DNA of 37,901 nucleotides from a virus: the IMG/VR virus record IMGVR_UViG_3300036859_001047, positions 1 through 37,901 of that record; one strand, written 5' to 3'. Positions 1,485-13,041 of the stretch are shown here, in pieces; position 1 is the first letter of the stretch; each line of letters opens with the position of its first letter. A program made the position numbers and the translations under genes. Below the pieces are notes generated by a model that saw nothing but the letters and a program-made list of their open reading frames with translations, ran no database searches and was not told where the DNA came from.

Positions 1485-1730
1485 TTATGTCTCAATCCTT
1501 GCGGCCAGCTGCTCTAGCGTGCCTCCCTTGGCCAGCCACTCGCGCACCCAGCCGGGTTGCTGGCCACGGCCTGCCCACACCATCACGTCGGCAGCGCTGC
1601 TGCCCATGACGTAGAACACCTGGCGCCCGCGTAGGTGGTTGGCCGCAAGCCGGCGCTTAAAGTCTGGCGGCAACAGTGCCGCCGCTTGCTGCCCGGTGGC
1701 GGTAAGGCAAAGCTCGATCTGGTCGCTCAT
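1485..1730 (-). CDS. Small H-NS-like DNA-binding protein
   Basis: The 81-residue product contains VWAGRGQQPGWVREWLAKG at about residues 51-69. This resembles the C-terminal AT-hook-like loop of H-NS family nucleoid proteins (consensus W-[SA]-G-RGR-P-W-[IVL]). There is room for only a short N-terminal part, so a full H-NS oligomerisation domain is unlikely. The ATG at 1730 is chosen over an upstream in-frame ATG at 1772 because it is preceded by GGAAAGGA and overlaps the methyltransferase stop as ATGA. A role in binding AT-rich or foreign DNA, or in antagonising host H-NS, is inferred from the motif only. Confidence 0.7.
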   Translation of the reverse strand: MSDQIELCLTATGQQAAALLPPDFKRRLAANHLRGRQVFYVMGSSAADVMVWAGRGQQPGWVREWLAKGGTLEQLAARIET

Positions 1731-3526
1731 GCTGCAATCCTTTCCCGTTGTTTCAGCTCGGCGCGGCTCCAAGCGGCCAGATCCATGCAGTTAGCCGCAA
1801 TCAACGCCTCGGCCGGGCTGGGGCTCACGCTGTTTCCCACCATGCGAACCTGCGCCGTCTTGCTGAACTTCCTGCCGTCGTGGCCGCGCTCGATGATGTA
1901 GTTCGGCGGGAAGCCCTGGCAGAGATACAGCTCGCGCGGCGTCAGCATGCGCAGGCAAATATCCACGATCACATAGGGCTCACCCTTCACCCACACGGTG
2001 ACCAGAGCCAGCCTGTCGCGCGTGGTGGCGGTTGGCATTGGCTGATCCAGGCCGCTCACGTTATCGGTGCCGTAGTAGCTGATCAGGAAGCTGGCGCATT
2101 GCAGGGCGGCTTCCTCGTGCTCCTTGCTCAGCAGGTACGATGCGACGGCGTGATGCTCGGCGCCGGCGGTGATGGCCGCCATCGGCGCGTCGAACTCGCG
2201 GCCGAAGCAGTTGCGGCGCAGCGTTACCAGGTGCGCGGCCACCAGCTGCTGTTGGCTGCCGGTGGTGGTGATCGTGGTAGCCGGCTCGTCCAGGCGGCGG
2301 CCAACCGTCTGGTTGAATCCGCCGTTGGCTTGCATCAGGTAGGCGGTGGCCAGCTGCCGGTGGTTTTCCGTCAGCATGGTGCCGAGCGGCTGCTCCACGC
2401 TGGCCGGCTTGCCGCTGTAGCTCGGGCCGCCTGCGCCAACTAGCACCGCGGTAGCAAGGGCGGCATCGCCTTTGCTCGTGGTGGTGAACAGTGGTTGATT
2501 GCCTGGGCGCGGCTCGGTTTGGGCAGCGCGGCCTCCTACCCCGAGCAGAACAGGTGACGCCACCGCGAAGCTGCCGCCCTTCGGATGGGCGGTGATGGTG
2601 TTCAGCGGTTGCTCGATGTCGTGCACGCCGTTTCGGTTGCTCCAGTTGGCCAGCTCCACGATGAACGGCTTGGGATTGTTCAGCACGAACTTGTGCATGC
2701 CCTTGGCGATCCGGCGCAGCGTGGCGTCGGCCAGTGGTTTCTTGCGGGTGAAGATGGATTCGCCCAGGTTGCTGAAATCGATGTGTTCGGCGGTGGCGCG
2801 GTAGGCTTTCTGGCCGCGCTGAGGCTGCTTGAAGTGCGTGGCTGCCGGCCAGACGATGGGGCGGCCATCGCGGCGCGCGAAAAGGAAAAGTCGCTCGCGG
2901 GTGGTGGCCGCGCCGTAGTCTGCAGCATTCAGCATTTGGTATTCGACGTGATAGCCCAGCTGCTGGAGGATGTGCACGAAGCGGCGCCATGTCCGTCCGA
3001 TGTGTTTCGGGTCTGGCACAAGGAATTGCTCTTGCACCGGCACGCGTTCGCCCGGTGCAGCGACCATGCCATCCAGCTTCATGACGCGCCCAGTCTGCTT
3101 GCATCGCTTGGCGATCAGCGGCCCCCACTGCTGCATTTGCTTAACGTTTTCCATGCTGATGCTGCGCGGCTTCACCTGTCCGGCCCAGCGCACCATCACC
3201 CAGCCGAGTCCCCTGATTTTCTTGCTGCGCGGTTGGCCGCCGATGGCCTGGCTGAAGTGCGTGCAGTCCGGGCTGCCGTGCAGGTGGCCAACAGGACGGC
3301 AGCGGGTAGCTTCGCGCGGGCAAACCTCGAACACGTCGGCGCAGTAGTGTTCCGTCTGCGGGTGGTTCGCCTCATGCATGCTGATGGCGTCGGCGTTGTG
3401 GTTGATGGCGATATCGACGTGCCGGCCAAGTGCCAGCTCAATGCCGGTGGACTTGCCCCCGCCGCCGGCGAACAGGTCGACGATGAGTTCGTCGGTCGTC
3501 AACAGGCTGAATTGATCTCTGACCAT
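1727..3526 (-). CDS. Orphan DNA (cytosine-5-)-methyltransferase
   Basis: This enzyme transfers a methyl group from S-adenosylmethionine to C5 of cytosine in a DNA target. Motif I is DLFAGGGGKSTGIE at residues 17-30. The motif IV nucleophile loop is GSPDCTHFSQ with Cys88, ENV of motif VI is at 126-128, motif VIII (AADYGAATTRERLF) is at 201-214, and a motif X-like MVGNSVSPSPAEALI lies near the C-terminus. At 599 residues it is long for the family; the stretch between motifs VIII and X is unusually large and probably holds target recognition. The catalytic loop reads SP-D-C rather than the usual PPC. No restriction endonuclease is adjacent, so it is probably an orphan enzyme protecting phage DNA from host restriction. 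The opposite-strand open frames here are shadows. Confidence 0.93.
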   Translation of the reverse strand: MVRDQFSLLTTDELIVDLFAGGGGKSTGIELALGRHVDIAINHNADAISMHEANHPQTEHYCADVFEVCPREATRCRPVGHLHGSPDCTHFSQAIGGQPRSKKIRGLGWVMVRWAGQVKPRSISMENVKQMQQWGPLIAKRCKQTGRVMKLDGMVAAPGERVPVQEQFLVPDPKHIGRTWRRFVHILQQLGYHVEYQMLNAADYGAATTRERLFLFARRDGRPIVWPAATHFKQPQRGQKAYRATAEHIDFSNLGESIFTRKKPLADATLRRIAKGMHKFVLNNPKPFIVELANWSNRNGVHDIEQPLNTITAHPKGGSFAVASPVLLGVGGRAAQTEPRPGNQPLFTTTSKGDAALATAVLVGAGGPSYSGKPASVEQPLGTMLTENHRQLATAYLMQANGGFNQTVGRRLDEPATTITTTGSQQQLVAAHLVTLRRNCFGREFDAPMAAITAGAEHHAVASYLLSKEHEEAALQCASFLISYYGTDNVSGLDQPMPTATTRDRLALVTVWVKGEPYVIVDICLRMLTPRELYLCQGFPPNYIIERGHDGRKFSKTAQVRMVGNSVSPSPAEALIAANCMDLAAWSRAELKQRERIAA

Positions 3527-6468: not shown

Positions 6469-7224
6469 CTATGCGGCGACGCTCTCGCGCTGCCCGATCA
6501 GGTTCAGGTTGGCCAGCTGCATGCTGTAGTACGCCCACACGCGCTTGAGGCGGTGGCGGGCTACGGCGCTGTAGCCGGTGTGCTGGATGGCCTGCAGGTA
6601 GGTCAGGCCGTCGCGGCGCATTTCGCTGATGTCCTGGCCGAAGGTGTTGGGGTCGGTGCGCATCATGTCCACGATGCCGGCGAAGCGGTGGCGGTTGTCG
6701 CGATAGAGTGCGCTGTCCTCGATGCCTCGCCCCTGGTATTCCACCGGGCCGAAGAACGGGTTGCACCAGGCGACGACCTCGGCGGCGGGTAGGTCGTCGA
6801 GGATAGCGGCCAGCCCGTTGGCGGTTTCCACGAAATCCAGCCCGCCGATCAGCGGGACGTGGATCACGGTGCGAATGCCTTCGGCGGCCAGCAGGCCCAG
6901 CGCATCGCTGTCCACCAGGTAGGCTTTCAGCGGGACGAACACGGCGGCTCCGGTGTCGATGACGGTGTCGCCGTCGTGGTCGAGGATGTGGCCGATCATA
7001 GTGTCGAACTGGCGGCTGTCGATCTGCTGGTGGTCATTCAGCAGCTCCAGCCCCTGCACGCCCAGCGCGGTGATGCGCGAAAAGGTGCGGTTGACCGGGT
7101 CGGTGTCGATGCACTGCGGTGCGCGGGGCGAGTTGGCCGCAAGGTGCTGGGCCACCAGCGCGGTGACGCCGGACTTGAAGCAGCCGCCTTTGCCTTGCAG
7201 GGTGATGTGTGCGGTTCGTTGCAT
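6469..7224 (-). CDS. TraL-like P-loop ATPase (ParA/MinD superfamily)
   Basis: The 251-residue protein opens MQRTAHITLQGKGGCFKSG. Residues 11-19 form a deviant Walker A loop in which the usual GKGGxGK reads GKGGCFK, so the penultimate Gly is Phe. Then follow IDTDPVN, IDTGAAVFVPL and WCNPFFGPVEYQG, which match segment by segment the IncP plasmid conjugation protein TraL as I remember it. The start at 7224 is chosen over one at 7347 because AGGAG lies 6 bases before it. In IncP plasmids TraL is encoded in the TraJ-TraK-TraL relaxase operon. The gene directly upstream here is TraK-like, so the pair is kept together. What it does in a phage is unknown. Confidence 0.8.
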   Translation of the reverse strand: MQRTAHITLQGKGGCFKSGVTALVAQHLAANSPRAPQCIDTDPVNRTFSRITALGVQGLELLNDHQQIDSRQFDTMIGHILDHDGDTVIDTGAAVFVPLKAYLVDSDALGLLAAEGIRTVIHVPLIGGLDFVETANGLAAILDDLPAAEVVAWCNPFFGPVEYQGRGIEDSALYRDNRHRFAGIVDMMRTDPNTFGQDISEMRRDGLTYLQAIQHTGYSAVARHRLKRVWAYYSMQLANLNLIGQRESVAA

Positions 7225-7237
7225 GGTGTTCTCCTGG

Positions 7238-7594
7238 TTACCAGTTGACGGGTTTGTCGCGTTGCTGACGGAAGTCGCCGCGCGGTGGTTGTTGGGGCTT
7301 GGCTGACGGCGCGGCGTCCGGCGGCGTGGTGGTTTGGCTTGCTTCACGGGCTGGGCCTTTCTGGCGCTTGCGCTCTCGGTAGAGTGCGTTGCGCAGTTCG
7401 TCTACGGTCATTGCCAGCCCTTCCTCGGCCAGTGTCGCCACCAGATCGGCTTGGCGTACGCCGCGCTCTAGCGCGGCTTCAATGGCGGGTAGCAGGTTGC
7501 GGAATTGGGCGGCTTTGCTGGTGGTGACGGGCGGTGCTGGCGTGGCCATGAGCCGCTCTGTCACGCGCTGTTTCCATGCTTCTTCTTCGCTCAT
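7238..7594 (-). CDS. TraK-like DNA-binding protein, first gene of the left operon
   Basis: The 118-residue product begins MSEEEAWKQRV. It has a central helical unit (LLPAIEAALERGVRQADLVA, then GLAMTVDELRNALYRERKR) with the pattern of the IncP oriT-binding protein TraK (A-L-G-I-L then F-HVRR). A basic, Gln/Pro-rich tail follows. The pairing with a downstream TraL-like gene supports the call. The ATG lies inside an 11-bp repeat array, so the protein may bind that array and control its own synthesis; that is inference. There is no strong ribosome-binding site, only GAGCAAG within the repeat. Confidence 0.65.
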   Translation of the reverse strand: MSEEEAWKQRVTERLMATPAPPVTTSKAAQFRNLLPAIEAALERGVRQADLVATLAEEGLAMTVDELRNALYRERKRQKGPAREASQTTTPPDAAPSAKPQQPPRGDFRQQRDKPVNW

Positions 7595-8219: not shown

Positions 8220-8300
8220 ACAAGCTTTCTTGTTATTTAATCTACAAGTCACTTGTAGGTGTGTCAACAAGTATTCTTGTAAATTTACAAGTTTCCTTGT
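8220..8300. promoter_or_regulatory. OL-like cluster of four repressor operators
   Basis: Four palindromes of the form ACAAG-N3/4-CTTGT lie at 8220-8233 (spacer CTTT), 8244-8256 (TCA), 8267-8280 (TATT) and 8287-8300 (TTTC), about two turns apart. The same palindrome occurs three times between the CI-like and Cro-like genes, so the same repressors probably bind both clusters. The second and third sites overlap the leftward promoter. Confidence 0.9.
8239..8267 (-). promoter_or_regulatory. Leftward early promoter (pL-like)
   Basis: On the minus strand a perfect -35 TTGACA (8267-8262) is separated by exactly 17 bases from TAGATT (8244-8239). The spacer contains one operator and the -35 touches another, as expected for a repressor-controlled early promoter. 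Transcription would start near 8232 and run through the structured leader. Confidence 0.85.
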
Positions 8301-8364: not shown

Positions 8365-8997
8365 ATGGATGCTCATGGGCAGCCTGATCGGGCTTTGCGT
8401 TATCACGCGGTAACCGAGCGGCAAATTGACGAGATGATTGGCCTTTGCAAGGGAATCATGGCTGATGGCGCTGTGTGCCAGGGCGAGGCTGAATTCTTGC
8501 TCGGGTGGATGGAAGCGAACCGGCAGGCAATGGGTCAGTGGCCGGCATCGGTGTTGTACCCGCGTATCGCGGCAATGCTGGCGGACGGCGTATTGGATGG
8601 GGAAGAAGAGCGCGAGCTGCTCGGCTTGTTGGGTGAGGTGACGGGGTTTAATGCCCCGGCAGCAGGGGAGGCAAGCGGATCTAGTTCTATGCCGCTTTGT
8701 AAGCCGGCGCCAGCGGTTGTTTTTGAGGGTGTGTCGTTTTGCTTCACCGGCCAGTTTTACTCCGGCTCGCGGGCATGGTGCGAAGAGCAGGTTCTGTCGC
8801 GTGGAGGGGTTCCGGCGAGTGCTGTGACTAAAAAGCTTGGCTATTTAGTGATTGGTGAGGTGGGTTCGCGGGATTGGTTGCACAGTACATTTGGCACCAA
8901 GATAAAAAAAGCTATTGAATACCGCGACAAGGGTGTTGGTCTGGCAATCATTGATGAGCGGCATTGGTGTGATGCGCTGGCTTTGTATGGTGTTTGA
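8365..8997 (+). CDS. BRCT-domain protein with helical N-terminal domain
   Basis: The 210-residue protein has an all-helical N-terminal part (residues about 15-90; IDEMIGLCKGIMADGAVC and MLADGVLDGEEERELLGLLG), perhaps TerB-like with two acidic D-G-x-[LVC] turns. A C-terminal BRCT domain follows (about 120-205): FCFTGQF, then LSRGG, VTKKLGYLVIGEVGS, TKIKKAIEYRDKG and IIDERHW. It closely resembles the BRCT domain of NAD-dependent DNA ligase, but no ligase domain is present. The gene runs rightward 65 bases from the last OL operator, so it may be repressor-controlled or lysogen-expressed. A role in binding DNA ends or in host protection is inference. Its base composition is less GC-rich than the structural genes. 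Confidence 0.85.
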   Translation: MDAHGQPDRALRYHAVTERQIDEMIGLCKGIMADGAVCQGEAEFLLGWMEANRQAMGQWPASVLYPRIAAMLADGVLDGEEERELLGLLGEVTGFNAPAAGEASGSSSMPLCKPAPAVVFEGVSFCFTGQFYSGSRAWCEEQVLSRGGVPASAVTKKLGYLVIGEVGSRDWLHSTFGTKIKKAIEYRDKGVGLAIIDERHWCDALALYGV

Positions 8998-9125
8998 AGC
9001 GGGTTAGGCTTGTTTGCATTTGATCTGAGCACTAGTGTGTATTAGACGCGTCAGCATATTGTCATGCATGCGTGGGCTAGCTTTGGGTGATGTTAACTTG
9101 GGCTGTACAACTGCGAGGAGCACTC

Positions 9126-9464
9126 ATGGACAAAGGTATCTATCACGTTAGTTTTTCCTCCGCTGCAGGCAGCCACGGCGAAGGGTTAGCTGTGGTATCG
9201 GATGGTGCGGTTAACGGAGGTGATCCTGGTTACCTCTACTCTGGAAAATTCAATACCAGTGGCGACCAGCTCTCCGGCAGGCTCGCGATAAAGAGGTGGA
9301 ACACCAAGATTCCTTCCGTGTTCGGTCCGCTGGGCAACTTTGAGTTGGATCTATCAGGTACTTATGTTCAAGCCAACAAATCGTTTAAGATTTCTGGTTC
9401 CGTTATAGGTCAGCCCGCAATGAATATTGTCATAGTGGGGAACTACTTGTCAGATTCCGCCTAG
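9126..9464 (+). CDS. GrlR-like regulatory protein
   Basis: The 112-residue product starts MDKGIYHVSFSS and continues HGEGLAVVSDGAVNGGDPGY, LSGRLAIKRWN and PSVFGPLGNFELDLSG. This is the beta-barrel pattern of the GrlR family, whose founding member is a negative regulator of enteropathogenic E. coli type III secretion. The ATG at 9126 is chosen over 9087 because GAGGAG lies 5 bases before it. It follows the BRCT gene in the cargo region. The partner or ligand here is unknown; GrlR itself binds the activator GrlA, which is not present. Confidence 0.85.
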   Translation: MDKGIYHVSFSSAAGSHGEGLAVVSDGAVNGGDPGYLYSGKFNTSGDQLSGRLAIKRWNTKIPSVFGPLGNFELDLSGTYVQANKSFKISGSVIGQPAMNIVIVGNYLSDSA

Positions 9465-9594: not shown

Positions 9595-9771
9595 ATGACA
9601 CATCTTATCCATCCATATTTCATCCAGCAGGGTGGTCTCATTCTCCCTGCTGCAATTTATGCCCAGGCTTGGGCTCGGACCGTGATCGTGAGGGCGCAGC
9701 AAGCGGCTGCGCGGAAGAAGGGTAATGCGCGTTTGAGGCCGGCGCCGCGCAAAGGCGGTTGCCTGGTTTAG
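9595..9771 (+). CDS. Possible small protein (58 aa)
   Basis: A frame beginning MTHLIHPYFIQQGG contains a short hydrophobic stretch (LILPAAIYAQAWA) and a very basic C-terminus (AAARKKGNARLRPAPRKGG). Its stop overlaps the convergent 161-residue gene by four bases. GGGGTGG lies upstream, but somewhat far from the start. It could be a membrane-associated peptide or chance. Confidence 0.35.
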   Translation: MTHLIHPYFIQQGGLILPAAIYAQAWARTVIVRAQQAAARKKGNARLRPAPRKGGCLV

Positions 9772-10253
9772 CTTCTGGCTTTGTGGGGTTGTTTTGACGT
9801 GGCTGGCCGGGAGTCGGCCGCTTCTGTTTCTATTGAGCCTGCTATTTCAGGCGGTTTTTTTTTACTCGTTGCCCACCCCGGCCCCAGCTCCCATAGGTAT
9901 TTCATAATCTCGTTCAGCGTTCTTCCCGCTGCTGGACGAACGGGGCCGAATTCAAAGCCGGGATATTCGCTCAGGTCCCCATCCTTTAGCCTTTGCGCTA
10001 GGGCATTTAGCGCCGTTGATAGATTGGTGATGGTGAATGGCGTGCAGGGGCCTGCGAACTTCTGCAGCTCATCGTCTGACAGGATGAGGTATTGGCGGAT
10101 GCCAGGGGCCTCGAACACCACGCCGACGCATACCTTGTCGTCGCGCCATTGATTGGGCTGCCAGTAGACTAGACGGCTCTCCCCCTGAATGCGCGGCGTG
10201 CGGTTGGTTTCCGTGCGCAGGCGCTTGCTCAGTCGTTTAGCGAGATCTGTCAC
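9768..10253 (-). CDS. Unknown protein, third gene of the HTH/HipA-like operon (161 aa)
   Basis: The N-terminus is basic (LAKRLSKRLRTETNR). A mixed alpha/beta core follows (ESRLVYWQPNQW, VCVGVVFEAPGIRQYLILSD), and the C-terminus is a charged tail. The ATG overlaps the stop of the HipA-like gene as ATGA, so the two are made together. HipA-like kinases of this type are often encoded beside DUF3037 proteins; the core has a faint likeness to that family, which I cannot confirm. The function is unknown. Confidence 0.7.
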   Translation of the reverse strand: MTDLAKRLSKRLRTETNRTPRIQGESRLVYWQPNQWRDDKVCVGVVFEAPGIRQYLILSDDELQKFAGPCTPFTITNLSTALNALAQRLKDGDLSEYPGFEFGPVRPAAGRTLNEIMKYLWELGPGWATSKKKPPEIAGSIETEAADSRPATSKQPHKARS

Positions 10254-11044
10254 GGCGCAAAGCTCCTCATCAGGGTTTGGGCATTAGCCCGCTGTTGCAA
10301 GAATTTTAGTCCAGCGCGCACTTCTCCTTTTTTGAGCAGGGCGCTCCACCAGTCTTCTAGTTCTTCGCGAATTGCGGAGAGGGCATGCATGTGTTGATGC
10401 CCGTGCTCAATAATTAAGAGCGCATCTTCGTGGGCGGGCATGCCGTTCCAAGCTAAAAACGTAAGCTTATTTTGAACATAATCGAGCGCTTTTAGTTTTT
10501 TTTCATCCCAGTCCCTCCCGCCTAGGATGTCGGCGAAGTCCAGCATGCCGAATTCGTTCCGTTCAAGTGGGATAAGGTTCCCGCTATTGCTGTCTTTGTT
10601 GGCAATCCATTCGTTGAGCGCTACTGCAGCATGCAGCTGCGGCCACCGCACTAGGCGATCGGCCCAAGCGTCTGCGTCTCGCGCTTGGATCGATGGCGGT
10701 GTCTGGTCTGGCGGGTGCAGTGCCTCGGAAGCCCAGCAAGGATAGGTTTCGTCCTTGGGCCATTTGTCGTTGGGGTGTAGCTCCCGAAGACGCTCAGTGG
10801 GAACTAGCAAGATCCAAGCGCGTGGCGCGACCGCCATGCCACGCACGCGCGCAAGTAGGCGCCCAAGGAGTTCATTGGCGATGCCTTTGCTCTTGATGGG
10901 GAATGCCTTGATATAGGCATAGGTTGGGAGTTCTTGCTCGTCCATGATGACGGCCAGATGGACCCGGCTGCTGTAACCTTTTAGCACCCTGGCGGGGTGT
11001 AAGTGGTGTCCGGGCCCCAGTACCTCAAGGACGCTGCTTTCCAT
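10250..11044 (-). CDS. HipA-like kinase-fold protein (HipA_2-type)
   Basis: HipA-type proteins are Ser/Thr kinases; HipA of E. coli phosphorylates glutamyl-tRNA synthetase and arrests growth. This 264-residue protein is shorter than HipA (about 440) and matches compact HipA-like kinases. Visible features are a likely ATP-binding lysine in YIKAFP (K46), the catalytic loop NEWIANKDSNSGNLI (D151, N156) and a DFG-like MLDFADILGG (D169). The start overlaps the upstream HTH gene by 20 bp and the stop overlaps the downstream gene by 4 bp, so the three form one coupled unit. The position corresponds to lambda rex, so an immunity, exclusion or toxin-antitoxin role is plausible. The substrate is unknown. 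Confidence 0.8.
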   Translation of the reverse strand: MESSVLEVLGPGHHLHPARVLKGYSSRVHLAVIMDEQELPTYAYIKAFPIKSKGIANELLGRLLARVRGMAVAPRAWILLVPTERLRELHPNDKWPKDETYPCWASEALHPPDQTPPSIQARDADAWADRLVRWPQLHAAVALNEWIANKDSNSGNLIPLERNEFGMLDFADILGGRDWDEKKLKALDYVQNKLTFLAWNGMPAHEDALLIIEHGHQHMHALSAIREELEDWWSALLKKGEVRAGLKFLQQRANAQTLMRSFAP

Positions 11045-11369
11045 GCTCAGACAACAAATTCAATAGTTTGCCCACTGTTTGCGCCAGCTCGATGCTGGGG
11101 CCGCTGGACAGGAACCGCTCCATGCTGGCCATTAGCTCTCCAGGGTCGTGTGTGGGGTGTTCACGATCCAGCCAGCCTCGTTCAAGTCCAAAGCATAACT
11201 CAATATGCCGGGCTAGCCGTCCGCCGATGCCCACCTTATTGCTAAGCAACTTGCTGACTTGGGGTTCGCTGCGGTCCAGCTTGTCCGCTAGTGCCGTAAC
11301 GCTGCCCTCGACCAAGTGGAAGAGTGCGGCCAGATTAGCGTGGCGGATTTGGCGGATATTGGGGGACAT
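11025..11369 (-). CDS. HTH (XRE-like) regulator, first gene of the HipA-like operon
   Basis: The 114-residue protein begins MSPNIRQIRHANLAALF. It contains a helix-turn-helix (TALADKLDRSEPQVSKLLSN), then IGGRLARHIELCFGLERGWLD, the usual layout of phage-repressor N-terminal domains. The C-terminal 40 residues are helical and may dimerise. AGGA lies about 8 bases before the ATG. A 25-bp palindrome 37 bases upstream is a likely operator. It is probably the autorepressor and antitoxin-like partner of the HipA-like kinase, as HipB is for HipA, but a direct antitoxin role is inference. Confidence 0.85.
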   Translation of the reverse strand: MSPNIRQIRHANLAALFHLVEGSVTALADKLDRSEPQVSKLLSNKVGIGGRLARHIELCFGLERGWLDREHPTHDPGELMASMERFLSSGPSIELAQTVGKLLNLLSEHGKQRP

Positions 11370-11405
11370 GCCCGAATCCTAGCCAGTAGCAGGCGGCGGC
11401 CGGAA

Positions 11406-11430
11406 TGACGAAAATTGTCAATTTTTGTCA
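11406..11430. promoter_or_regulatory. 25-bp palindrome, probable operator of the HTH/HipA-like operon
   Basis: The arms TGACGAAAATTG and CAATTTTTGTCA (overlapping centre at 11418) are inverted repeats with one mismatch. The site differs from the ACAAG/CTTGT operators, so a different regulator, most simply the adjacent HTH protein, should bind it. On the minus strand it includes a consensus TTGACA, but no good -10 lies 17 bases on. It also covers the stop codon of the CI-like gene. Confidence 0.7.
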
Positions 11431-11972
11431 TCTTGCTCAGTTTTATCCTGTACGGGCTGTGATTTTGGCGGCTTTATGCGTTTCGATAACTTGCTTACAG
11501 TCTCTTTGGCGGCGTGTTCATCGGCCTTTGAGCCGTCAGTAATCTGTTCTTGTGCTGCGCCTGTCGGCAGGGAGCGAAACAGAGTCTCGAAAGAATGTAG
11601 CAGCGACTCGGGTAGGCTGCTGCTTTTCCAGGCGTCTGTGATGGCATCGAAAATCGGCGCAAGTTCTTTTGGGTAGGATCTGTTGGTGCTTGTGCCGGTG
11701 GATTCGTGCGTCTTTGGAGGCTCAGAAGGGCCTTCGTCACGTGCGCCCTGACCAGTTGCTAGCCAAGTGATGTTCACGTTTGCTGCCGCAGCAATAGCGG
11801 GGGTGAGGGAGCTCGCTCGGGCGGGCTTCCCTTCTTTAGGTTCTTTGCATAGATATTGGATGGTTTGCGGTTTGCATTCTCGGCCGGTAAAAGCCGTCAC
11901 CCTTCGCGCCATTTCTGATTGGCCGCCAACTCTATCCACGCAAAATCGTACTCGTTCGTAAAACTCTTCCAT
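11418..11972 (-). CDS. CI-like phage repressor lacking the S24 peptidase domain
   Basis: The protein should maintain lysogeny by binding the ACAAG/CTTGT operators. The ATG at 11972 (MEEFYERVRFCVD) is chosen because AGGA precedes it and upstream extensions would run through the operators. Residues about 12-75 form a repressor-type HTH (VGGQSEMARRVT, KPQTIQYLC, ANVNITWLATG). The remaining 110 residues are hydrophilic (SYPKELAPIFDAITDAW, then a Lys-rich tail). They show no Ser/Lys peptidase motif, so RecA-stimulated self-cleavage is not expected. Divergent Cro-like and OR-like sites support the call. How the prophage is induced is not apparent. Confidence 0.85.
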   Translation of the reverse strand: MEEFYERVRFCVDRVGGQSEMARRVTAFTGRECKPQTIQYLCKEPKEGKPARASSLTPAIAAAANVNITWLATGQGARDEGPSEPPKTHESTGTSTNRSYPKELAPIFDAITDAWKSSSLPESLLHSFETLFRSLPTGAAQEQITDGSKADEHAAKETVSKLSKRIKPPKSQPVQDKTEQDDKN

Positions 11973-11984
11973 AAAGCCAATCCT

Positions 11985-12055
11985 ACAAGGATTCTTGTTA
12001 AGGTTCCTTGCAAGGATTCTTGTGTTTGTGCATACTTCACTACAAGTAATCTTGT
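11985..12055. promoter_or_regulatory. OR-like cluster of three repressor operators
   Basis: Palindromes ACAAGGATTCTTGT (11985-11998), GCAAGGATTCTTGT (12010-12023) and ACAAGTAATCTTGT (12042-12055) lie between the divergent CI-like and Cro-like genes. They share the ACAAG/CTTGT arms of the four sites at 8220-8300. The first overlaps the leader of the CI-like gene, the second the rightward -35, and the third the region just after the -10. Confidence 0.9.
12008..12036 (+). promoter_or_regulatory. Rightward early promoter (pR-like)
   Basis: TTGCAA (12008-12013) and CATACT (12031-12036) are 17 bases apart, with TG two bases before the -10. The middle operator overlaps the -35 and the third operator lies at the expected transcription start, so repressor would block it. 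Confidence 0.65.
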
Positions 12056-12066
12056 AGAGAGTCATC

Positions 12067-12330
12067 ATGTCCAAAGACGCACTCCGAAAAGCGGTAGCAG
12101 CAGCCGGCGGCCAGTCTGAGCTAGCGCGTCGAATTTCCACTAGCGTGCGGCCAATTAAGCAGGGCCATGTTTGGTCGTGGCTCAACGAAAGTAAGGGCGA
12201 AGTGCCGCCGGCTGAATTTGTGCTGCCAATTGAAGCGGCGGTCATGAGGCGGGTCTCCCGACATGAGTTGAGGCCAGATTTATACCCAGACGAAACAAAT
12301 TCACCCACCGCAGACCGTCGTCCGGTCTGA
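12067..12330 (+). CDS. Cro-like repressor (YdaS family)
   Basis: The 87-residue protein begins MSKDALRKAVAAAGGQSELA. It has the YdaS/Cro pattern: ALRKAV..AGGQSELARRI, then IKQGHVWSWLN as recognition helix, VPPAEFVLPIEAAV and VSRHELRPDLYP. YdaS of E. coli prophage CP-933P acts as a Cro-like repressor. Its GGQSELARR segment parallels GGQSEMARR of the divergent CI-like protein, consistent with both reading the same operators. AGAGAG lies about 7 bases before the ATG. It is the first gene of the rightward operon, followed by a terminator. Confidence 0.9.
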   Translation: MSKDALRKAVAAAGGQSELARRISTSVRPIKQGHVWSWLNESKGEVPPAEFVLPIEAAVMRRVSRHELRPDLYPDETNSPTADRRPV

Positions 12331-12358
12331 GGTTTTGCCGGTTCGTCCGGCTTTTTTT
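12311..12358 (+). terminator. tR1-like terminator after cro
   Basis: GCCGG (12337-12341) pairs with CCGGC (12347-12351) around a 5-base TTCGT loop and is followed by seven T (12352-12358). A second hairpin, CAGACC/GGTCTG at 12311-12329, lies just upstream over the end of the Cro-like gene. Its place between Cro and the CII-like gene matches lambda tR1. Confidence 0.85.
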
Positions 12359-12420
12359 CTAACGACATGGCGGCTCGATGGCCGCCTGACTAAACGATAG
12401 GCGCAGGAGACTCGCAAATC

Positions 12421-13041
12421 ATGCGTGCAAATTCTCACCGAACAGTAATTGGCGTGATTCGTGACGGCGTGAGCCGGTGGCGCAGGCGTGAAGGTTTGAC
12501 CCGCCAGCTGGTGGCGGATCGTATTGTCGATGCGCACAACGTATGTGGCTTTGATTCCCTGACGGGCTTGGATTTTCACGCGGTAACCGGTGATGCCGAC
12601 CGCGCTGATCGGGCAATGCAGACCAATAGCGAGCGCATTTGGCGGTGGCTGGATGATGAGACTAAAGAAACCACTTTGCTACCGGCAAACTTGATTCCAT
12701 CGGTGCTGATGGCAATGCCTGTCGATATACGGCAAGAGGTGGTAACGGAAATTCTGGCGCCGCTCGGGTTGGTGGTTTCGCCTCATGTTTCGGAGCAGTC
12801 CGGCCAGTTGCTTGAAGTATTGATGTCGCTGGTCAAGGAAGGCGGCGAGGCGAACACCGCTTTCGCACGGCTATGCGTTGGCGCAGACACGGCGTCTGCG
12901 TCGATGGCTGCGCTGATCGATACCGACCGTGAGCTGGCCGAGGCGATGGCGGCACTGTCGCGCGCTCGCGATGAGGTGCTGCGGCGTGTCCAGTCTCTTC
13001 GAGGCGATGCCGTGAGCTTGCCGGCGCCAATGATGACCTAG
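12421..13041 (+). CDS. YdaT-like transcription regulator (CII-like role)
   Basis: The N-terminal 125 residues fit the YdaT family: VIGVIRDGVSRWRRREGLTR, a middle segment with GLDFHAVTG, MQTNSERIWRWLDD, then LLPANLIPSVLMAMPVDIR. YdaT of CP-933P is a tetrameric DNA-binding protein proposed to act like lambda CII; it was first described as a toxin. The C-terminal 70 residues are helical (LLEVLMSLVKEGG, then a coiled-coil-like stretch) and could drive oligomerisation. It follows the YdaS-like gene, the usual pairing, across a terminator. Overexpression toxicity is possible, but regulation is the better guess here. Confidence 0.8.
   Translation: MRANSHRTVIGVIRDGVSRWRRREGLTRQLVADRIVDAHNVCGFDSLTGLDFHAVTGDADRADRAMQTNSERIWRWLDDETKETTLLPANLIPSVLMAMPVDIRQEVVTEILAPLGLVVSPHVSEQSGQLLEVLMSLVKEGGEANTAFARLCVGADTASASMAALIDTDRELAEAMAALSRARDEVLRRVQSLRGDAVSLPAPMMT

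Follow-up and report, generated by a model that had tools for sequence, protein, structure and literature searches.

The three leftward genes at positions 9768-11369 of the window (the whole stretch of DNA analysed here, 37,901 nucleotides) probably form a prophage-borne toxin-antitoxin defence cassette that is a compact variant of the HipAD system, a reading to which we assign a probability of roughly 0.72. From upstream to downstream they encode a small HTH protein (11025-11369, minus strand; 114 aa), a kinase (10250-11044, minus strand; 264 aa) and a short HipD-type protein with a DUF3037-like domain (9768-10253, minus strand; GTG start, 161 aa), the kinase gene overlapping its upstream neighbour by 20 bp and its downstream neighbour by 4 bp, in agreement with the coordinates and overlaps given in the initial annotation. 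Directly upstream on the same strand lies a CI-type repressor gene (11418-11972, minus strand; 184 aa), which has PHROG repressor matches, scored on the longer ORF 11418-12368, and no match in a Pfam search. A divergent Cro-like gene of the YdaS family (12067-12330, plus strand; PF15943, E=5.9e-17) and a CII-like activator gene (YdaT/phrog_163; 12421-13041, plus strand; phrog_163, E=1.7e-17) lie beyond it.

The kinase and its partners

The 264-aa protein had been taken to be HipA-like. Scanned directly against Pfam, NCBIfam and PADLOC it matches no family, and its only PHROG match is phrog_11186, a group of unknown function; the part of the claim that stands does so through profiles of its relatives. 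Single sequences used as queries against genome and viral contigs gave no matches; alignments used in their place yielded 59 viral and genome loci. PF20613 (HipA_2) is matched by 31 of the 37 members of the kinase alignment, and the PADLOC model PDC-M66A by 23 of the 37 at E<=0.01. In the opposite direction, a profile of 49 relatives from which the window protein had been excluded found the kinase ORF in the window at E=4e-45, and when both the kinase and the partner profile were made with the window proteins left out, the ORFs they picked out of the window were precisely those of the kinase and the third protein. Weak relatives were also found by tblastn in the Moraxella phages Mcat18/22, in small enterobacterial plasmids and in an Acinetobacter record; those on the plasmids carry a HipA family kinase annotation, and the one that was scanned matches HipA_2 (PF20613). 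On these profile matches the kinase is assigned to a HipA-like family, its placement coming only through relatives. The residues K46, D151, N156 and D169, previously proposed as plausible catalytic positions, are all conserved in relatives: across the 37 aligned kinases E58, D151, N156 and D169 are invariant and K46 is nearly so, and all five are retained in the eight-member alignment of kinases from the short-HipD clade described below. An AlphaFold2 model of the kinase (pLDDT 89.9) has its best Foldseek matches in the PDB, weak and with modest TM-scores, to PI3K, PI4K and protein kinases, with no HipA among the best 50; this speaks for a kinase fold in general and does not point to HipA in particular. 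In a PDB profile search, HipT/HipA_C chains were matched weakly (E>=0.35).

The third gene, initially left unassigned, can be placed by profile and profile-profile comparison as a DUF3037/HipD-type gene. In the fetched loci nearly all kinase relatives carry a protein of ~290 aa directly downstream; several of these match DUF3037, the adjacency of kinase and DUF3037 protein is nearly universal, and 9 of the 37 members of the partner alignment match PADLOC PDC-M66B at E<=0.01. A profile of 35 partner proteins, with the window protein excluded, found the 161-aa protein at E=9e-7 among the 319 ORFs of the window, and comparison of the short and long HipD families as profiles gave a probability score of 97 and E=1.2e-10 over 123 columns. 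The short HipD corresponds to the first 120 residues of the longer family; its missing C-terminal half occurs in each of the 36 longer HipD proteins in the alignment, and other HipD proteins have lengths of about 266-315 aa. In its structural model only the DUF3037-like part is predicted with confidence, and confidence is very low for the last 33 residues; a Foldseek search with this model gave no match in the PDB and, among viral models, one moderate match to an unnamed 287-aa protein that is consistent with a full-length HipD. No member of the partner alignment, long forms included, matched DUF1829 in Pfam. Truncation or frameshift as the origin of the short HipD was rejected: a C-terminal remnant was looked for downstream of the gene and none was found, and the short form is common to its whole clade.

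The HTH protein is of the CI type and matches the regulator/repressor families phrog_5736 and phrog_12107; it has no HipB match in Pfam or NCBIfam and, as a lone query in viral contigs, found nothing. We do not favour this HTH partner as the antitoxin: because a DUF3037 protein acts as antitoxin in a published relative (PMC12548924), the DUF3037/HipD protein is the expected antitoxin, and the HTH protein probably has a regulatory role instead.

Recurrence in related prophages

The same order of genes, CI-HTH-kinase-short HipD, recurs in at least eight further distinct prophages (L083/L092, L088/L107, L089, L090/L091, L108, L109/L114, L110/L113 and L112/L115), which came from searches focused on IMG/VR and on genomes of Burkholderiales; the lack of co-occurrence elsewhere that the initial annotation would have taken as a refutation thus does not apply. 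A homologue of the HTH gene comes first in every one of these cassettes. In most of them the genes overlap by 4 bp at both junctions; L083 and L110 instead have small gaps between the HTH and kinase genes. The kinases of the short-HipD loci form a single clade (support 98/97), and clustering this good never arose in 500 shuffles of the labels; throughout this clade the partner lacks the C-terminal half, and the extra HTH gene and its dedicated operator are present. Of the relatives whose place is known, the nearest are Burkholderiales prophages, mostly from one family. HTH homologues likewise come first in the Chromatiaceae loci L042, L044 and L047; in L042 and L044, which encode a full-length HipD, the HTH and kinase genes overlap.

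Other arrangements were seen at the edges of the family. At L085:5225-7137 there are a tandem CI gene, a second small HTH gene and a kinase gene, the last two overlapping by 4 bp, and then a long partner frame that was not recognised as HipD; this arrangement is possibly a sister of the short-HipD clade (support 93/70). At L051:3813-6693 a distant family kinase lies 40 bp after a BREX brxL-like gene, with a DUF3037-like partner next, and the upstream regions of L052 and L059 look like that of L051.

Cassette operator and rex position

A palindrome beside the trio, distinct from the CI/Cro operators, had been pointed out in the initial annotation, and it is there. It spans 11405-11431 (ATGACGAAAATTGTCAATTTTTGTCAT), with 13-bp arms, one mismatch and a single central base; only two palindromes of such quality exist in the 37.9-kb window, and none of 3000 Markov-shuffled versions of the local sequence produced one. 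The conserved element before the HTH gene (11403-11430, minus strand) reads TGAC-N6-TGAC-N7-GTCATTC, with its core inverted repeat, TGAC-N7-GTCA, at 11406-11420. TGAC-N7-GTCATTC stands just before the HTH gene in each of the at least eight further short-HipD prophages (in L088 the first half reads TAAC, a G-to-A change), and in most of them an extra TGAC ten bases upstream makes the longer palindrome noted in the initial annotation. A search of the other fetched sequence, 908 kb in total, found no match to the motif. When its 18-base long form, TGAC-N4-ATTGAC-N6-CGTCATTC, was used blind, only 4 viral contigs out of 2.9 million matched, and each has the HTH, kinase and short HipD genes directly downstream. 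The element partly overlaps the 3' end of cI, taking in its final codons, but in the window GTCATTC lies past the cI stop codon, so that protein constraint alone does not account for its conservation. From this pattern of conservation we regard the palindrome as a cassette-specific operator. It is tempting to speculate that the HTH protein binds it, and autoregulation of the cassette by that protein would be expected. No terminator-like site is predicted between the CI and HTH genes on the cassette strand, and no simple sigma-70 promoter that could serve the cassette was found. An AG[CG]AT box at 11376-11381 (minus strand), 6-8 nt before the HTH start and kept in the aligned cassette relatives, may be a -10 element from which a leaderless mRNA starts, or else a further site for a protein.

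The proposal that the trio occupies the rex position of a lambda-style immunity region turned out to be stronger than claimed, as the module is flanked on either side by operators of the CI type. The phage operators, ACAAG-N4-CTTGT, number five exact sites in the window against 0.02 expected; three copies of the ACAAGGATTCTTGT type lie between the CI and Cro-like genes (11985-12055), and further copies lie past the other end of the cassette (8220-8300), which puts the cassette between OL-like and OR-like clusters. Paired clusters also flank the module in the relatives L090, L110 and L092, where the operators are ACAAC-N4-GTTGT, TATCAA-N-TTGATA and AACCG-N4-CGGTT, respectively. Flanked in this way, the cassette is in a true rex position. 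Immunity types thus differ between the phages and the cassette operator does not, which suggests that the cassette has regulation of its own. The rex genes of a lysogen receive cI read-through transcripts, and the cassette, being downstream of cI on the same strand, may receive them too.

The kinase gene also comes directly after a CI-type gene in distant prophages (Mcat22, Acinetobacter and Chromatiaceae), and other distant members of the kinase family adjoin lysis genes, so that the rex position is frequent in the family and not universal. Phages L065-L068 share the CII-like gene and have no kinase or HipD match, which marks the cassette as optional cargo. Among the trio proteins no RexA or RexB homologue was found in Pfam, PHROG or NCBIfam. 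The rex position is a known site of exclusion genes (PMC12894663), and, of the original proposal, the coupled operon with a HipA-like kinase in a prophage rex position holds, with an exclusion or abortive-infection role that is plausible by analogy.

Several other genes of the window were noted in passing. A GrlR-like protein (9087-9464, plus strand; PF16518, E=2.3e-15) is encoded in the immunity region next to the cassette; the GrlR family is named for a negative regulator of type III secretion. Beyond it is a phrog_3989 protein (8365-8997, plus strand; E=5.7e-63) with a BRCT-like stretch of the DNA-ligase type; proteins of this group occur in several IMG/VR phages and, judging by position and look, one adjoins the cassette in L108. 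A P-loop-like (GKGG) protein that looks like ParA/TraL and has no Pfam match is encoded at 6469-7347 (minus strand), and in L090 and L109 the DNA downstream of the cassette encodes GKGGVGKS proteins that look similar. The early leftward region also contains a C-5 cytosine DNA methyltransferase gene (1727-3526, minus strand; PF00145, E=2.9e-30).

Known systems and competing explanations

The closest published counterparts are the HipA-like kinase/DUF3037 pairs, catalogued in PADLOC as the candidate system PDC-M66. Such a pair in the Retron-Sda1 operon protects against phage Bas51; protection is lost when the kinase gene is deleted, removal of DUF3037 causes toxicity, and the HTH gene can be deleted without consequence (PMC12548924). 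DS-6 (HipAD) is a defence system validated in E. coli that requires the catalytic residue of its kinase (PMC13092281), and the HipAD discovery paper, to go by its citation there, concerns E. coli prophages. The window cassette resembles these systems in its HipA_2-type kinase with retained catalytic residues, in the DUF3037 protein immediately downstream with coupled starts, and in being carried on a mobile element, as HipAD often is. It differs in that its HipD is about half the length, lacking the C-terminal half, that a dedicated CI-type HTH gene and a conserved operator stand ahead of the kinase gene, and that its sequences are too diverged for detection by PADLOC and Pfam: none of the three proteins has a match in Pfam, NCBIfam or PADLOC at accepted cut-offs, nor any to PDC-M66A or PDC-M66B at E<=1. 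DS-6B also has a second domain, DUF1829, after DUF3037 that is absent from the 161-aa protein. Since recognition by PADLOC and Pfam fails and this domain is absent, we file the cassette as a HipAD variant, not as a standard member. Lambda rexAB is similar in where it lies (after cI and on the cI strand, with OL- and OR-like clusters to either side) and in expected exclusion role, yet the proteins are unrelated, a kinase and a DUF3037 protein as against RexA, which is DNA-binding, and RexB, a membrane protein, and the window cassette has an operator of its own.

In the explanation we favour, and by analogy with the published relatives, the kinase would be the toxin and effector, phosphorylating an essential host protein once freed, and the short HipD, translated from its overlapping start, would be the antitoxin that keeps it inactive in the lysogen. 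The HTH protein would repress the cassette's own promoter through the TGAC-N7-GTCATTC element before its gene, with some transcription perhaps also fed in from cI. Infection by a second phage would then unbalance kinase and antitoxin, and the freed kinase would arrest growth and so abort the infection; both the trigger and the kinase target in this scheme are conjecture. With its C-terminal half missing, neutralisation by the short HipD alone stays putative, and we count this against the favoured explanation, together with the failure of the three proteins to match family models directly and the absence of HipA from the 50 best Foldseek matches.

The overlap of the HTH and kinase genes, and the presence of the HTH gene in each short-HipD cassette found, would also suit a pair of the classical hipBA type II toxin-antitoxin kind, the HTH protein being both autorepressor and antitoxin and the third protein an accessory. 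We think this quite improbable: the DUF3037 partner joins the kinase in far more loci than the HTH protein does, the HTH protein resembles phage repressors and not HipB, the kinase is HipA_2-related with no HipA_C match in Pfam or NCBIfam, and in Retron-Sda1 it is loss of DUF3037, and not of the HTH gene, that is toxic (PMC12548924). A less distant possibility, although still a doubtful one, is that HTH protein and short HipD must both be present to neutralise the kinase fully, as in HipBST systems of three genes, with the HTH protein providing what the lost half of HipD did; this is a refinement of the favoured explanation rather than a full rival. The concept of an HTH protein, a kinase and a small non-HTH partner is indeed shared with hipBST. 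The hipBST order is hipB-hipS-hipT, with the kinase gene last, whereas the window kinase is second, in the order HTH-kinase-partner, and its partner is DUF3037-like, not HipS-like. That the C-terminal half is missing and an extra HTH gene and operator are present clade-wide speaks for such shared control, as does the resemblance of the C-terminus of the Retron-Sda1 DUF3037 protein to a DNA-binding protein (PMC12548924); the loci L042 and L044, however, have both a full-length HipD and an HTH gene, so that C-terminal loss is not the sole reason for the latter.

Toxin-antitoxin modules can also serve in prophage maintenance by addiction or in stress dormancy, and related kinase/HipD-like pairs do occur on small plasmids. 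We nevertheless hold such a role in place of phage defence to be unlikely, given two independent reports of anti-phage HipA/DUF3037 pairs (PMC12548924, PMC13092281) and the exclusion genes known from the rex position (PMC12894663). The reduced length of the third protein might, finally, suggest a truncated, decaying antitoxin in a non-functional cassette, which is very hard to reconcile with at least eight further prophage cassettes that share the short form, intact catalytic residues and coupled starts, and with the lack of any C-terminal remnant downstream.

HipAD has been recognised as a defence system only recently, and the short-HipD cassette, our favoured explanation being right, is a divergent, compact branch of it, missed by PADLOC and unnamed by Pfam, that occupies the rex position in a family of temperate phages. 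More tentatively, it is possible that this branch is a tripartite HipAD in which the DNA-binding and regulatory half of the antitoxin was replaced by an HTH protein derived from a phage repressor, with its own conserved operator, and so regulated independently of the immunity type of the carrier phage; the HTH protein might then be a sensor that responds to an incoming phage. The DUF3037 domain alone offers a testable minimal antitoxin, and the operator motif a handle for finding more members of a branch whose cassette would let a prophage shield its host cell from other phages.
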